Positions 2,626 to 24,205 of a stretch of DNA of 35,565 nt are shown one piece after another. Origin of the DNA: Geobacter sp. (lineage in GTDB: Bacteria; Desulfobacterota; Desulfuromonadia; Geobacterales; Pseudopelobacteraceae); NCBI GenBank assembly GCA_003151775.1, contig PLYK01000002.1, positions 1-35,565 on the forward strand, read 5' to 3'. Position 1 is the first letter of the stretch; every line of letters starts with the position of its first letter. A program made the position numbers and the translations under genes. The notes under the pieces were generated by a model. It was not told the origin of the DNA. It did no database searches and saw only the letters and a program-made list of their open reading frames with translations.

Positions 2626-2873
2626 GGCATCCCCATGAAGTGCAAAAACAATGTTAACCCGCCAACACTCACCACGAAAACAACCCAGCCAACCGCCGCC
2701 GCAACCAAAGCATCTTTATCTTTGTCAGTTCGTGTACAAGCTGCCATACCAAATATCAGCGCACACACCGCCGCAGATATCCCGATAGTCCAGTACAGGA
2801 CTGGCCTGAGGTATGGCCCCAACATGAGGAAGGGTATCCGGATTTTGAAGCCTCGACTTGGCATATCCCTCAA
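2622..2873 (-). CDS. Small two-TM membrane protein, hypothetical
   Basis: Two hydrophobic segments (VLYWTIGISAAVCALIFGMAA; ALVAAAVGWVVFVVSVGGLTLFL); start (TTG 2873 or ATG 2864) overlaps or abuts the stop of the upstream phosphoesterase. Confidence 0.65.
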   Translation of the reverse strand: MRDMPSRGFKIRIPFLMLGPYLRPVLYWTIGISAAVCALIFGMAACTRTDKDKDALVAAAVGWVVFVVSVGGLTLFLHFMGMP

Positions 2874-3673
2874 TCAACCGTCAACAACCGCTCAATCCGC
2901 GGTTTCTCGTACTCCGCCCCGGCGGTGAACACTCGCAGATTCGGCAGGATTTCAGCGTAACCTGAGCTATGCGTATGCCCGCAGTAGACCGAGATATCAA
3001 TAAGTGGGTAGTTCAGCGCGAACTCTCGCAATACCTCTCCGGTAGCTCGGCATCCGAAGTGAGGCAGGTACTCATCCGTTGAGTTCTTCCCCAGGTACCA
3101 GCAGGCCTCAGAGAAAGGAGGAACGTGCAGGGCGACGATGATCTTTCGGTATGATGCATCGATAGCTCGCGTCAGCTGCCCCCGCAGGTGCGCTGCGGCA
3201 TCATCGCCCAACTCATGCTGGACCTCCAGCCGGGCCCTCTTTGACGGTTTCACCAGCTCCTTGATCCGGTAATAGTCGTTGATCATCACCTCTGATCCCT
3301 CCGGATCTCCCATCCGGCCATCGGCCAGGCCCTCGTGGCCGACCAGGCAGGTGGTGTAGGTGAGGGGGATGCAGGCAGGGCAAGCCGATAGCCAGGTCAA
3401 GAGTGGGGTCTCTGATATCAGCTTACCAACGGCATCGTTAACCTCGCGGATTGAGGACCCGTAGTAGTCATGGTTGCCAAGGACAAAATAGACCGGCATC
3501 TGCAGGGTCGTCGCGAAGTGATCGAGATACCGTGTGATATTGAGCGAGGTTGCTATGTCCCCAGTGATCAACACAGCATCGGCGCCGGACGTGCGGATAT
3601 CGGCGCAGAGGCGGTTGACCTCTTCGCGGCCCACGAAGTTGAGATGTATGTCGGTTAGCCAGGCGAGTTGCAT
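2870..3673 (-). CDS. Calcineurin-like metallophosphoesterase
   Basis: LTDIHLN ... ITGDIA ... VLGNHDYYGSS ... ALHVPPFSEACW ... CGHTHSSG: complete metallophosphoesterase motif series. Confidence 0.88.
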   Translation of the reverse strand: MQLAWLTDIHLNFVGREEVNRLCADIRTSGADAVLITGDIATSLNITRYLDHFATTLQMPVYFVLGNHDYYGSSIREVNDAVGKLISETPLLTWLSACPACIPLTYTTCLVGHEGLADGRMGDPEGSEVMINDYYRIKELVKPSKRARLEVQHELGDDAAAHLRGQLTRAIDASYRKIIVALHVPPFSEACWYLGKNSTDEYLPHFGCRATGEVLREFALNYPLIDISVYCGHTHSSGYAEILPNLRVFTAGAEYEKPRIERLLTVD

Positions 3674-4428
3674 TAGGAATAAACCCCGTATTCGATGCGG
3701 GTCAATATTGCCAGGACCGATTTTACTCCTTCGTCGGTATCGAGCAAATCAGCAGGGACCTTGCCGCCAAGGGCCGGAATAGGAGAGTTGAGCCATTGAT
3801 TAGCATTATCAGGGGTTTCAAGGACCTCTATTGCACATGCCAAAACATCATCTCTCTCAATTATCCTTGCCATACGCCGTTTCGCTGTCCTGATTAGCAT
3901 TGTGAAGCGAGCTTCCGCATCAATCATCTCGTCAGAGTATATTCCTGATCCAGTATCTTCTGGAAAATTGTCCCATCCTCCGTCTTCTTTGACTATTTTA
4001 ACGAGATGTCTCTTCGCAAACGCCAGCACGCGCATATCCTCTTCACTGAGTTCATAATCAAAATTCCTCACCTTCCGCCCAACGTCCGGCCCGAAGTCGG
4101 TATCCACAGGATCAGACATATTCTCTGGTGTGATACTGGCGAGCAATTCTAAGCCACGCTCCTTCTTACCTAAGCCTCTTTTTGCCCGAATTATGAAGCG
4201 AGCTTTCGCGTCAACCCCCTCCAACATTTCCAACAGTTGGTCATCCTCCAGGTTGTACAGATCCGGAGGACATTCTTTTGACCCGATAGGAGAGACTATG
4301 AATTGCAGTTTATGTTTCTCAATGACCGCCATAAGCATCTGCCCCAGACGCATGTCCGGGTACTTCTCCCAAACCGCCTGGAGTTTTGCCATAACTGCCG
4401 GTATGCGCGATTTATCCCTCATTTGCAT
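3673..4428 (-). CDS. Protein with C-terminal MbcA/ParS/Xre toxin-binding-like (DUF2384) domain
   Basis: C-terminus WLNSPIPALGGKVPADLLDTDEGVKSVLAILTRIEYGVYS matches the conserved tail of Xre/MbcA/ParS antitoxins; N-terminus RIPAVMAKLQAVWEKYPDMRLGQMLMAVI. ORF is open to 4473; ATG at 4428 overlaps the upstream stop. Confidence 0.75.
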   Translation of the reverse strand: MQMRDKSRIPAVMAKLQAVWEKYPDMRLGQMLMAVIEKHKLQFIVSPIGSKECPPDLYNLEDDQLLEMLEGVDAKARFIIRAKRGLGKKERGLELLASITPENMSDPVDTDFGPDVGRKVRNFDYELSEEDMRVLAFAKRHLVKIVKEDGGWDNFPEDTGSGIYSDEMIDAEARFTMLIRTAKRRMARIIERDDVLACAIEVLETPDNANQWLNSPIPALGGKVPADLLDTDEGVKSVLAILTRIEYGVYS

Positions 4429-4711
4429 CGTCACCGTGTTCCCTGATGTCCTTTTCGAGTTTTTCAAACGCATAATCCGGCACGCGGTCTCCCGCTTCCC
4501 GGTGACGGCGCAGGTGCTCTATCATCTCAGTACGTGAGTCGGTATTGAAATTAGTATGGAATATTGCGCCATTCATACACTCGAATGGGCTACCCTTTTC
4601 GTGATGATGTACTTCGGTTGTCGGCATAAACTGACAGAGCATGCAGGTAATTCCGCCTTCGACATCGTAAAACACATAAACATCACTACTCACAAAACGA
4701 GCTAAAGCCAT
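4412..4711 (-). CDS. Cys/His-rich small hypothetical protein
   Basis: MALARFVSSDVYVFYDVEGGITCMLCQFMPTTEVHHHEKGSPFECMNG...SRTEMIEHLRRHREAGDRVPDYAFEKLEKDI; ATG 4711 overlaps the upstream ORF stop (aaATGgctTTAG). Confidence 0.65.
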   Translation of the reverse strand: MALARFVSSDVYVFYDVEGGITCMLCQFMPTTEVHHHEKGSPFECMNGAIFHTNFNTDSRTEMIEHLRRHREAGDRVPDYAFEKLEKDIREHGDDANEG

Positions 4712-5034
4712 TTCTTCTTCCGATCCATCAGCGGCAACGAGCGGGGCGTGTTGTACCAAATGTCGTATTGCGGTACGACAATCACTGACCACTGATCCTC
4801 TATAAATTCAGCTTCTACAGTACCTTCATCCCTATTGACCCCCACAGTTACAGCGTTTAGCTTTCTATGCAACTCCTCTATGTGAGGAATCGAGATCACA
4901 TAATCATGGCAAGCAGGGCACCGGCGTACCCTGATATCTCTGAGCACGATGTTGAGGATCATAAACCCGCCCACGGCGTAGTACGTGTCGTCTCGGGTCT
5001 CAATCAGCTCACTGTTACAGGTCAGGCATTTCAT
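4702..5034 (-). CDS. YgiT/MqsA-type zinc-finger protein
   Basis: MKCLTCNSELIETRDDTYYAVGGFMILNIVLRDIRVRRCPACHDYVISIPHIEELHRKL: CxxC...CxxC ribbon arranged as in YgiT-type domains. Confidence 0.7.
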   Translation of the reverse strand: MKCLTCNSELIETRDDTYYAVGGFMILNIVLRDIRVRRCPACHDYVISIPHIEELHRKLNAVTVGVNRDEGTVEAEFIEDQWSVIVVPQYDIWYNTPRSLPLMDRKKKWL

Positions 5035-5146
5035 CCCCCATTTTGTATCATCCCTCCCTGCCGGTCAACCGATAAGTTACCGGGAAATCAGGCTTCTTCG
5101 ACAACCTATTGTTGTCACTTTGGTCAATCGAGTGAGGTTATATGGG

Positions 5147-5162
5147 GGTTTTCGTGTGCAGG
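5147..5162. repeat. 16-bp direct repeat copy 1 (GGTTTTCGTGTGCAGG)
   Basis: Identical to 5872-5887; both lie upstream of minus-strand genes (4702..5034 and 5340..5837). Confidence 0.7.
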
Positions 5163-5339
5163 TTTGTCGTGGATATTTTGAGGATATTTCGTAAGGAGGG
5201 GGAGGGTGGTTGAAGATTAAACCATGAGTATAATACTGTTGGTTAAATGCTGTGCAGGCCCGGCGCCGGGGGACGGTGGGGTGGGGAAAACGCGAGACTG
5301 GCGGTCAGTAGTGACGGGGTCAGAGTGCAGGGGACTCCA

Positions 5340-5837
5340 TTACAGCAGCTCTCTACCGACTGGCTTGCTATCCAGCCAGGCGAGATCTTCTGCGCTGATC
5401 TCAGCCGATGCGTCACATTGATCCAGTAGCTCGTCCAGGCTGTAATGCGGGCGCGGCCCGCCGCTTTCAATCTCTAATTTGTTGCGAATCTTTGCGAGCC
5501 CTTCAAGAGACCACATCGAGTTAACCGGAGGTTCTCCATTGAACTCCCTTGATGGCCTTGTAGGCCAACTATCCGCGAGATCTGGCCGTTTCAGGCAGGA
5601 GCAATGGAGAATTTCATAGATAGTGACAATATGTAGCGCTCTCGTGACCATGTCCGTTTTCGATGGTAATGGTCTTTTCCCGGACCCGTATTCAGCCAGT
5701 ATTTCTCGACTGTCAGTGGCGATGCCTAGCAATTTGCATCGCTGTTCAACCGTAAGTTCCCAGGCATCAAATACTTTTGAGACCAACTGGCCAAGTTCTA
5801 TGCGAGCAGACTTATCGAGATCAGTATTTTTTCCCAT
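5340..5837 (-). CDS. MbcA/ParS/Xre-antitoxin-like (DUF2384) regulator
   Basis: VFDAWELTVEQRCKLLGI ... TDMVTRALHIVTIYEILHCS ... WPTRPSREFNGEPPVNSMWSLEGLAKIRNKL: helical layout and N..F.G..P...M....GL..VR motif of the family. Confidence 0.75.
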   Translation of the reverse strand: MGKNTDLDKSARIELGQLVSKVFDAWELTVEQRCKLLGIATDSREILAEYGSGKRPLPSKTDMVTRALHIVTIYEILHCSCLKRPDLADSWPTRPSREFNGEPPVNSMWSLEGLAKIRNKLEIESGGPRPHYSLDELLDQCDASAEISAEDLAWLDSKPVGRELL

Positions 5838-5871
5838 ACATTTATCATAATCAAAAACATGGACTCTGCAA

Positions 5872-5887
5872 GGTTTTCGTGTGCAGG
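5872..5887. repeat. 16-bp direct repeat copy 2 (GGTTTTCGTGTGCAGG)
   Basis: Exact match to 5147-5162. Confidence 0.7.
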
Positions 5888-5927
5888 CCCAGTCCCGGGT
5901 GGTTTTCGCGAGAACGCCGGACCGCGG

Positions 5928-5954
5928 CAGTTACTCGAAAATTTCGAATAACTG
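5928..5954. promoter_or_regulatory. 27-bp near-perfect palindrome, candidate operator or hairpin
   Basis: CAGTTA-C-TCGAAA-A-TTTCGA-A-TAACTG in the divergent intergenic region between the MbcA-like regulator and the abi gene. Confidence 0.65.
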
Positions 5955-6145
5955 GATCATGGCACCTGTCAGGTCTGGTCCCCGTGATGTTTTCGGGGGA
6001 TGGTGATGTCAGTGCCTCCAGTCTGTGGAGGAAAGTCAATTGTCGACATGATCATATGGAATATGGTAGAAGTTAATCATGTCAGTATCTTCTACGCATC
6101 TTTAAGATCTGTGTACCGTGGGGCTGAGTAATGTCTATTTTTTGC

Positions 6146-6174
6146 TTTACATCGAAAGCGATTATTGATATAAA
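6146..6174 (+). promoter_or_regulatory. Sigma70-type promoter
   Basis: TTTACA (6146-6151), 17-bp spacer, TATAAA (6169-6174). Confidence 0.7.
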
Positions 6175-6180
6175 AATAGA

Positions 6181-6229
6181 TAACACACCCGCCATGCCTC
6201 TCAACGATGCACACTTTGGTGGGTTTTTT
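6181..6229 (+). ncRNA. Putative abi-associated small RNA (about 49 nt), ending in an intrinsic terminator
   Basis: Begins about 7 nt after the -10; ends with ACCCGCC ... GGTGGGT hairpin (one G-U) followed by TTTTTT (6224-6229), immediately before the abi SD/start. Confidence 0.6.
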
Positions 6230-6246
6230 ACGTCTAGGGGCTGCCA

Positions 6247-7221
6247 GTGACAGCCTTCGATAAACCTGCAACTACTCCCTCCGAACAGCTCGACAAGTTA
6301 CGCCAACGCGGATTAATCATTGACGACGAACCTCGCGTCCTGCGTTATCTCTCCAATATCAGTTATTTCAGGTTATCCGCATATACCCGTCCTTTTTACG
6401 TGCCAGATGAAAAACCACATCGTTTTTTACCTGGAACCACTTTTGACAATGTTCTGACGTTGTATATTTTTGACAGGAAATTACGCCTCCTGCTTCTTGA
6501 AGCCATTGAGCGCTTAGAAGTCGCTTTGCGAGCACAGCTAACTAACGCTCTGGCTGAACATTACGGACCTCATGGATATCTTGACCCTGGAATATTTGAT
6601 ACTCGTTACAACCATAGCTGGCTGCTTGAAAAGATGGATAAGTTAGTACAAGAAAGGAATGTAGAGGTATTTCTTCATCATTACCGCTCACAGTATGCCA
6701 GTGCTCCTTCGCAGCCACCTGTCTGGATGGTCACAGAGCTTCTAACCTTTAAGGAAGTATCTATTTTATTAGCTAATCTTCGTCATGAAAAGGATACCCA
6801 GCGCATTGAACGGCATTTTGGTTGGAAATTCAGAGTTCTCAAATCTTGGTTTCGAAGTCTTTCGGATCTACGCAATCTGTGTGCCCACCATATGAGGATA
6901 TGGAATCGCGAATTTGGCAGTCGGCCTGAGATGCCTGTAAGACGTCCAGCCAACTGGCCCAACATTCCAGTAGCAATCCCTACCGGTTCCCAATTACATC
7001 CTGAACAGACTCTTAATCCGCAAAGCCGTTTATATATGCAGGTGGTGGTCATTGAATCTTTGATGAGGATAGTGAGCCCCAGAAGCAGTTGGTCTCAACG
7101 GTTTGTATGCTTGCTCGATCAACATAAAAATATATCCCGTCCTCACATGGGGTTTCCTTCAAATTGGGAGGAAGAACTTTTCTGGCTGGATATAGTGAGC
7201 AAAGCCAGGAGCCGAAGCTGA
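6247..7221 (+). CDS. Abi_2 family (AbiD/AbiF-like) abortive-infection HEPN protein
   Basis: Q.DKLRQRGLIIDDEPRVLRYLSNISYFRLSAYTRPF ... F.NVLTLYIFDRKLRLLLLEAIERLEVALRAQLTNALAEHYGPHGYLD ... LRNLCAHHMRIWNREF; HEPN-like RNLCAH (R-x4-H). GTG start with AGGGG SD. Confidence 0.9.
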   Translation: MTAFDKPATTPSEQLDKLRQRGLIIDDEPRVLRYLSNISYFRLSAYTRPFYVPDEKPHRFLPGTTFDNVLTLYIFDRKLRLLLLEAIERLEVALRAQLTNALAEHYGPHGYLDPGIFDTRYNHSWLLEKMDKLVQERNVEVFLHHYRSQYASAPSQPPVWMVTELLTFKEVSILLANLRHEKDTQRIERHFGWKFRVLKSWFRSLSDLRNLCAHHMRIWNREFGSRPEMPVRRPANWPNIPVAIPTGSQLHPEQTLNPQSRLYMQVVVIESLMRIVSPRSSWSQRFVCLLDQHKNISRPHMGFPSNWEEELFWLDIVSKARSRS

Positions 7222-7340
7222 CATCACCTCACCAGCCCCACCAAATACTCCCTCACCAGCCCCTCGATGACCTCTATAATCTCCGATTGCCCGGTTGATT
7301 GCCCCTTCCCTTGTCCGGTCGCTGGGCCGGTTTTGACCGG

Positions 7341-8254
7341 TCAGGAGTATTTCCCAACTTCAAATCCTGCCCAGTCCGTTATCTCCGGAATGTCGTTAAA
7401 ATTTATATCTTCTTCCGGCATCGCTTCCAGGGCTTCCAATTCTGCCAACTGTTTTTTGGTAAGTCCCTTCTTCACCCTGGACCTTTTGACGGCCTCTTCG
7501 ACATCGGCGGGGGTTAACCCCAGTTTTTCCATCTTGGCGCGAACACCTGTTAGAGAGGCTTCCCGCTGTCTCTTGATTAACTCCGCCGGCGAGATCGCAT
7601 TCATCCTGGCCATGTGGCCGGTCTTTGCCACGACAACCGCCGTTAACTGGTCTTTTCCCGCCTTCTCATAGTCCTTACGACTACCCAGCGGCTCCAGGTG
7701 GATACCACTCCTTACAGTGTCCGGACCCGGATCCACAATCTCCCACTTCAACCCCACGAGGTCAGCACCTGAAGACAGCAAGTCGGGCCGCAGACGAACG
7801 CCGGCCGCGGCTGCGTAGGCGTAGAGTGCATGATCGCTGGTGGCCACCGCGTTGGCGGGGAGGGAGGAGAGGGCGTCGACCAGCTGCCGGGGGGCCTGGC
7901 CGACGTAGAGAGCTTTGTTCATCCGCTGGTCGCGGACCAGTGCCGCGGTGAGACCTTTCAAACGGAATACCGCCATATCCTTGCGCTCGTTGAATTTCTT
8001 AAACACCTCCTCGGTCTCCGACGTCCGCCGGCCAAGACTCTTCTGTGAACCGTCGGCCGTAGTCCGGATCAGGTACTCCCTCTCTCCCTGGCGCTTCCAA
8101 AACATGCCGCCGGCGACGTCAGGCGAAGCGGCGTGCCGCCGAGCGTCTTCCCAGGCAGAGTAGCATGCTCGGGCGTCGATGTAGTGGCGGGCGGCGTCTT
8201 CGTCGAGGTCGGTCCAAGGGGGAGGGGAGGGCGGGTGTTGAGTATGTCATTCAT
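7341..8254 (-). pseudogene. GSU2403-like nucleotidyltransferase-fold protein, frameshifted and apparently lacking its core
   Basis: Same frame upstream of ORF 7341..8105 reads WTDLDEDAARHYIDARACYSAWEDARRHAASPDVAGG-MFWKRQGEREYLIRT...KSLGRRTSET; the ATG start (MNDILNTRPPLP) is in another frame, separated at a C-rich run (about 8216-8232). Confidence 0.7.
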
Positions 8255-8453
8255 CGGCTTTCTCATAACTGCTAACCTATACGGAAAATAGTGGTGCATC
8301 AAGTCTTACGATGAGTGGTTGAGAGATCTGGATGGAATTGACAGTCGAATGAAGGGAAATAATAAGTATTATAAGAATAAGCTTGAAGTATCTGGTATTA
8401 TAACTTATATGAATTATACGTAGCTCATTATCTAACTTGGAAGGACAACGCGA

Positions 8454-9005
8454 ATGGCGACATTGATTGAAATGGCATCTGAAATTGTATCTGCGCACGT
8501 ATCAGCAAATCAAATGAGTACTGAGGAATTGCTTGCCGAAATCCAGAAAGTACACGCAGCTCTGAAGTCGCTTGAAGCAGGTCAAACAGTTGAAGGTGGG
8601 GCTTTTGAGGCTAAACCGGCACTTACTATAAAGCAGGCGTTCAGGAAGGACGAAGTTATCTGTATGATATGTGGGAAAGGCGGTTTCAAAACACTTACCC
8701 GCCACCTGAACCAGGCACATGAGCTGAAGCCCGGCCAATACCGCAAGCAGTTCAATATCCCTTCTTCACAGTCCCTGACAGCCAAGAATTACAGCGAAGC
8801 AAGACGCCAGTCGGCTCTTGATCGTGGCCTTGGTGACAACCTGGCGAAGGCACGGAAGGTGAGAGCCGAGAATATTGCGGCTGCAAAGGCTCCAGCAAAA
8901 GCAGCGAAACCCGCAAAAGCCATAAAGGCTGTAAAGGAAGAGAAACCGGCTAAGCCGGCGAAAGCAACTACCGTTGTGCGCAAAGCTGCAGCGAAGGCAA
9001 AGTAA
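8454..9005 (+). CDS. MucR/Ros-family zinc-finger regulator with Lys/Ala-rich C-terminal tail
   Basis: ICMICGKGGFKTLTRHLNQAHELKPGQYRKQFNIP (C2H2 Ros/MucR signature) followed by AKAPAKAAKPAKAIKAVKEEKPAKPAKA tail; SD GGAAGGA upstream. Confidence 0.92.
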   Translation: MATLIEMASEIVSAHVSANQMSTEELLAEIQKVHAALKSLEAGQTVEGGAFEAKPALTIKQAFRKDEVICMICGKGGFKTLTRHLNQAHELKPGQYRKQFNIPSSQSLTAKNYSEARRQSALDRGLGDNLAKARKVRAENIAAAKAPAKAAKPAKAIKAVKEEKPAKPAKATTVVRKAAAKAK

Positions 9006-9109
9006 CGTAGACTGAAAAGCCTGCGGTGTAGGTTGAGAGGGAGCTTGGTTATAAGGCTCCCACTTTTTGTTTGGGAGTCACACTATACCTACCTTTAAAA
9101 TTAGGGTTT

Positions 9110-24096: not shown

Positions 24097-24141
24097 AAAA
24101 AAAGCCGGGCGCGCTTTCCTGAGAGAAAGGCAACCCGGCTT
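24097..24141 (-). terminator. Riboswitch expression-platform terminator
   Basis: Minus strand AAGCCGGG...(nested CTTTC..GAAAG)...CCCGGCTTTTTTT. Confidence 0.8.
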
Positions 24142-24195
24142 TCCGCTTGGGACCCGTGGCTTTCCGTCCCCACCTCGCGATGGGTTTGGCGAATA
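24129..24195 (-). ncRNA. GEMM-I-type cyclic dinucleotide riboswitch aptamer
   Basis: Minus strand TTCGCCAAACCCATCGCGAGGTGGGGACGGAAAGCCACGGGTCCCAAGCGGAAAGCCGGGTTGCC: CAAACC, GGACGnAAAGCCaCGGGTC and AGCCGGGTTGCC signature blocks in order. Confidence 0.85.
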
Positions 24196-24205
24196 TGATA
24201 TGGCT

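Follow-up and report, generated by a model that had tools for sequence, protein, structure and literature searches.

A compact AbiF/abiF RNA pair in a Geobacter genome and solitary abiF RNAs in phages as putative antitoxin mimics

The PbAbiF/AbiFr system of a Prevotellaceae bacterium is reportedly the subject of a study by Zilberzwige-Tal et al. (Cell 2025). The PbAbiF structure is described in a review as holding one non-coding RNA per monomer that blocks the single-strand RNase (PMC12737573). In the C. difficile AbiF/RCd22 system a short RNA predominates over a long read-through transcript, AbiF is toxic in two hosts in a manner that depends on two catalytic residues, and RCd22 binds AbiF directly and neutralises it both in cis and in trans; anti-phage activity was not demonstrated for this homologue (PMC12373285). 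An initial annotation of the DNA analysed here had described AbiF-type proteins as toxins with RNA antitoxins and as relatives of Cas13 ancestors; the C. difficile and Prevotellaceae systems, and the link to Cas13 ancestry, are indeed published.

We analysed a 35,565-nt stretch of a Geobacter sp. contig (hereafter the window) and compared one of its loci with these systems. On sequence evidence, this locus is very probably (roughly 0.9) a type III-like toxin-antitoxin and abortive-infection module in which AbiF is paired with an abiF RNA, and it adds one more pair to a class of systems that has already been published. The predicted toxin gene, abiF, is an intact reading frame on the forward strand from a GTG start at 6247 to a stop at 7221, encoding a 324-residue HEPN ribonuclease of the Abi_2 (AbiD/F) family. 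Abi_2 (PF07751, 2e-52) is its only Pfam match, PADLOC assigns it to AbiD (7e-71), and its only sequence match in the PDB is PbAbiF (8vz6; phmmer E 7e-50), with homology over 311 residues. The RNLCAH motif that had been remarked upon in the initial annotation (residues 209-214, positions 6871-6888) coincides with the HEPN catalytic motif, Arg-209 and His-214 being aligned with Arg-210 and His-215 of PbAbiF, and the RNxxxH pattern is found in every full-length AbiF homologue. The protein has a single Abi_2 domain and a single RNxxxH motif, and its gene is the only one in this genome (about 84% complete) to match Abi_2.

Upstream of the gene lies a sigma-70-like promoter, read from the sequence on the forward strand (6146-6174), in which TTTACA (6146-6151) and TATAAA (6169-6174) are separated by 17 nt; a match this good at the right position has a shuffle p of about 0.02, and the promoter recurs in homologues. 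Promoter-like pairs with at least 9 of 12 matching bases at the right spacing precede 17 of 34 abiF RNAs, compared with 5.5% of shuffles. An AGGGG Shine-Dalgarno sequence (6236-6240, forward strand) stands before the GTG, so that promoter, ribosome-binding site and start are all located where they had been annotated; the closest homologue (L003, a locus of an uncultured Fibrobacteres) has a GGAGG Shine-Dalgarno sequence and likewise a GTG in the corresponding position. Generic scans of the window for promoters and terminators missed both signals, the abiF promoter because its -10 box ends in A and the abiF hairpin because its closing stem encloses a longer loop than the terminator scan permits. 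Since such generic signals occur in the window at numbers near chance, we relied on tests of conservation instead.

Between promoter and gene we predict an RNA antitoxin of about 49 nt (6181-6229, forward strand), with its 5' end placed from the promoter and its 3' end from the U-run. Its core (6188-6224, forward strand) is a full-length match to the Rfam abiF RNA, RF03085, at 45.5 bits (cmscan), above the gathering score of 37, and it is the only such match found in the genome, again at about 84% completeness; the locus carries one copy of the motif and no tandem repeats. The RNA consists of an outer stem (6188-6193/6218-6223), an inner stem (6195-6197/6209-6211) and a conserved 11-nt apical loop, CUCUCAACGAU (6198-6208), and it differs from RF03085 in an inner stem of UGC/GCA instead of AGC/GCU, a compensated change, and in one G-U pair in the outer stem. 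The 49-mer has a folding energy of -15.6 kcal/mol (z = -3.5), a stability that none of 200 shuffles reached. A run of six U (6224-6229) directly follows the outer stem, giving an intrinsic terminator or attenuator (6188-6229, forward strand) before the toxin gene. The initial annotation had described an RNA of this length ending in a terminator; both elements are present, but they are not consecutive, antitoxin and terminator being one and the same hairpin. The locus is thus a compact single-motif AbiF pair whose antitoxin hairpin doubles as transcription terminator, and therefore antitoxin strength and toxin expression would hang on the same base pairs.

The homologues used for comparison were drawn from related genomes, MAGs, plasmids (Proteobacteria, Actinomycetota and Cyanobacteria) and the C. 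difficile phage phiC2. An abiF-like hairpin lies upstream of AbiF in 34 of the 35 loci read, window included, and hence beside 33 of 34 homologues, a count that includes several RNAs with weak scores or identified solely by visual inspection (L026, L028, L030 and L041); the absence of a conserved RNA beside homologous genes, which would have spoken against the annotation, is not what we see. The sole AbiF lacking an upstream RNA, in L043, has an abiF-like RNA converging on its 3' end (L043:2450-2512, reverse strand), which scores weakly (25.6 bits) and has its own TTGACA-N17-TATAAT promoter and a U8 run. With a promoter of its own, this convergent copy suggests that abiF RNA can function when transcribed apart from the gene. 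Moreover, the hairpin covaries upstream of homologous Abi_2 genes, a check proposed with the annotation: in a sequence-only MAFFT alignment the covariation score is 0.274 compared with 0.091 in shuffled alignments (0 of 500 as high), 94.6% of cells pair compared with 84.6% in shuffles, and pairing falls to about 42-44% when the partner is shifted by one column. One inner-stem pair, for example, is CG in 20 sequences, UA in six, AU in four and GC in one. At least five T occur in the 10-nt window from the last stem base in 31 of 33 homologous RNAs, as against 13% of random 10-mers drawn from the same regions. Our covariance model R1 was derived from these very loci, and its high scores on them are therefore not independent evidence; the Rfam match and the sequence-only alignment are.

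The window and L003 share a unit of promoter, RNA and most of the gene (6139-7092, forward strand; blastn, 72% DNA identity), and DNA similarity with two other homologues begins at 6182, the 5' end of the RNA. Because homology begins either at the promoter or with the RNA 5' end and continues into the gene, the abiF RNA and the AbiF gene, judged by these alignments, travel together across phyla. The two neighbouring reading frames (5340-5837 and 7341-8105) lie on the opposite strand, and the abiF unit therefore appears to stand alone. A genome of the same genus (G400) has an AbiEi/AbiEii pair and an NYN protein (PADLOC HEC-09) between flanks corresponding to 4709-5071 and 8453-9068, which makes the abiF site a variable one with defence-type cargo. 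Our search for a clean empty site found none, the G400 site being occupied by this other cargo, and several plasmid AbiF homologues sit among type I restriction-modification genes. The G400 locus syntenic to 4709-9068 (L060) also encodes a 1440-residue protein without a Pfam match. Within the window, the segment following the abiF stop (7218-7294) has several further copies of 84-93% identity elsewhere in the genome, a c-di-GMP-I riboswitch (55.3 bits) lies at 24126-24200 on the reverse strand, and a protein with an Xre/MbcA/ParS C-terminal toxin-binding domain is encoded at 2870-4473 (reverse strand) beside a calcineurin-like phosphoesterase.

Some strong abiF RNAs in our phylum sample have no intact AbiF within 1.5 kb. 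One lies between hsdM and hsdS (L007:1490-1561, reverse strand), another precedes a RelE-type toxin pair (L009:1490-1559, reverse strand), and others adjoin only an N-terminal AbiF remnant (L065/L087, L076 and L079); L062:4783-4852 (forward strand), L088, L080, L086, L097 and L102 are also listed as solitary, one listed case being an extra copy located 3' of a pair that is itself intact. The sample contains 7-11 of 23 RNAs without intact AbiF and 1 of 14 AbiFs without an upstream RNA (p = 0.013 on a loose and 0.12 on a strict count), and the only toxin-only case proved to possess a convergent RNA. Given these p values we do not use the counts as strong evidence; they are compatible with, and only suggestive of, a history in which the toxin was lost while the RNA was kept. 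Blastn of two abiF RNA queries against complete E. coli genomes gave no match, a search that diverged RNAs could escape.

Solitary abiF RNAs are also present in phages. The window RNA matches Aeromonas phage PZL-Ah8 by blastn (95.9% over 49 nt, E 4e-14), as well as vB_AhaP_PT2, T7-Ah, PZL-Ah152, Salicola phage CGphi29 and cyanophages. Queries with other members of the RNA family bring in Rhizobium phages as well as mycobacteriophages, for which 43 records contain a match; we examined three of these records. The 37-nt core of L003 is identical in PZL-Ah8 and CGphi29, and that of the window differs by one base. Searching whole records for PF07751 detected Abi_2 in none of the 14 RNA-bearing phage records tested and in none of three sibling phages, while the positive control, phiC2, was found; a tblastn search of the entire collection with the window's AbiF protein listed no match in those phage host groups. 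Four Aeromonas T7-like phages have the RNA in the leader of gene 9, the scaffold gene, where it directly follows a T7-type promoter, CTGACTATAGGG (L103:2997-3054, L104:2997-3054, L106:2997-3046 and L107:1997-2046), and would thus be strongly transcribed. At that position the relatives ICP3, Eco_Mak and JELG-KS1 carry sequence that is unrelated. Cyanophages S-CREM1 and S-SZBM1 carry the RNA within a tRNA cluster, the S-CREM1 copy having been annotated earlier as an abiF sRNA with no mimicry reading (PMC9964418). Beyond the Aeromonas phages, solitary copies without Abi_2 come from Salicola, cyano-, Rhizobium, faecal and mycobacterio-phages (L105, L108-L113 and L115-L117); L112 has two in tandem, the second weak (17.6 bits). 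In an alignment of the phage copies with the window and L003 included, 93.2% of cells pair compared with 80.3% in shuffles and the covariation score is 0.362 compared with 0.151 (0 of 500). Among 11 aligned phage copies, identity is 94% in the apical loop, 65% in the outer stem and 34% in the flanks. The phage copies are followed by 4.5 T per 10 nt, compared with 7.4 beside AbiF genes (p = 4e-6, an approximate value because related sequences are not independent).

The annotation's reading of the locus, in which an RNA antitoxin precedes a HEPN toxin of the AbiF type that is expressed through terminator read-through, is supported by the RF03085 match, the co-travel across phyla, the covariation and the fact that the C. 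difficile pair works in this way (PMC12373285). In the mechanism that we propose, one promoter would yield mostly the 49-nt RNA, because the hairpin with its U-run ends transcription, and occasional read-through of the hairpin would give the toxin mRNA; read-through is the most likely route, since the U-run ends just 17 nt before the start codon. The hairpin RNA would bind an AbiF homodimer and block its HEPN RNase site. Were the RNA lost or titrated, through loss of the element or phage takeover of transcription, AbiF would cut single-stranded RNA and arrest the cell. We infer all of this activity at the window locus, and the phage trigger as well.

The hairpin could instead be only a cis attenuator, that is, the terminator leader of an RNase defence gene with no protein-binding antitoxin, and its terminator-like form in nearly all loci directly before the gene would fit. 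A plain terminator, however, would not keep an apical loop nearly invariant among unrelated phages whose flanks have diverged, and the phage copies retain loop and stem pairing even though their T-tracts have weakened. In addition, solitary and convergent copies of the RNA exist, and RCd22 neutralises in trans by binding (PMC12373285); we consider attenuation alone improbable. Still less probable is a role for the RNA in directing AbiF to particular RNA targets, in the way that a crRNA directs Cas13. The single-stranded part of the RNA, the 11-nt loop, is conserved rather than variable, so that no spacer-like segment is present, and a review describes AbiF as being without RNA-targeting specificity (PMC12948488). 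Equally slight is the chance that the window locus is a degenerate remnant without function. The site does vary among genomes of the genus, and relatives have decayed AbiF copies beside intact RNAs, but in the window the 324-residue frame, catalytic motif, Shine-Dalgarno sequence, promoter, hairpin and U-run are all intact. The toxin-antitoxin reading of the window pair is accordingly the one that we retain.

Of these results, the putative phage mimics are the ones that merit following up. We lean towards the view, from sequence comparison, that the solitary abiF RNAs of several unrelated phage families mimic the antitoxin, binding the host's AbiF and thereby preventing abortive infection. By supplying the RNA half of the pair, the phage would keep AbiF inactive. 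Such mimicry is the simplest account of the phage copies, and would presumably amount to counter-defence. The RNA could instead serve mRNA stability in a leader, and the mycobacteriophage copies may have another use. Phage RNA halves with a constant loop, a compensated stem and weakened termination would be hard to explain unless AbiF-type toxins threaten phages. The mimicry idea was not found in the literature searched, whose coverage stopped short of the 2025 study of AbiF in Cell and of Weinberg's motif paper from 2017. If true, it would represent an RNA-only counter-defence aimed at AbiF, of a lineage proposed as the source of Cas13. Comparing these phages also offers a direct route to asking whether AbiF is a natural anti-phage system, a role that is still difficult to show in C. 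difficile (PMC12373285).

Precedents for such mimicry are the pseudo-ToxI of phage phiTE (PMC3475682) and the solitary-repeat RNA anti-CRISPRs, Racr (PMC10651486). Both resemble the phage abiF copies in being a solitary RNA part of a host defence system; the toxin family differs for pseudo-ToxI and the effector family for Racr, and abiF mimicry is putative. As to the window, it holds what characterizes an AbiF/abiF RNA system, namely an Abi_2 HEPN protein, the RNxxxH motif, a same-strand upstream RF03085 RNA and covarying structure. We rejected assignment to classical type III toxin-antitoxin systems (ToxIN, CptIN and TenpIN), which have a tandem-repeat antitoxin and a toxin of the ToxN/AbiQ fold, whereas the window has a single RNA motif and, judged from sequence matches, an Abi_2 toxin. 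Assignment to type VI CRISPR-Cas13 also fails, since that system pairs a CRISPR array with a protein containing two HEPN domains and the abiF locus has neither, its 324-residue protein having one Abi_2 domain and one RNxxxH motif beside a single RNA motif. PbAbiF/AbiFr (PDB 8vz6), compared by protein alone, is like the window in having a homologous protein whose catalytic Arg and His align. AbiFCd/RCd22 of C. difficile phage phi027 shares with the window an Abi_2 HEPN toxin with RNxxxH, an upstream RF03085 RNA, one promoter and a terminator before the toxin, read-through being known in C. difficile (PMC12373285). The two differ in host, neighbourhood and mobile context, and in their RNAs: RCd22, of about 100-130 nt, carries the abiF motif twice and has its terminator in a distinct hairpin, whereas the window RNA has one motif whose own stem terminates within about 49 nt.
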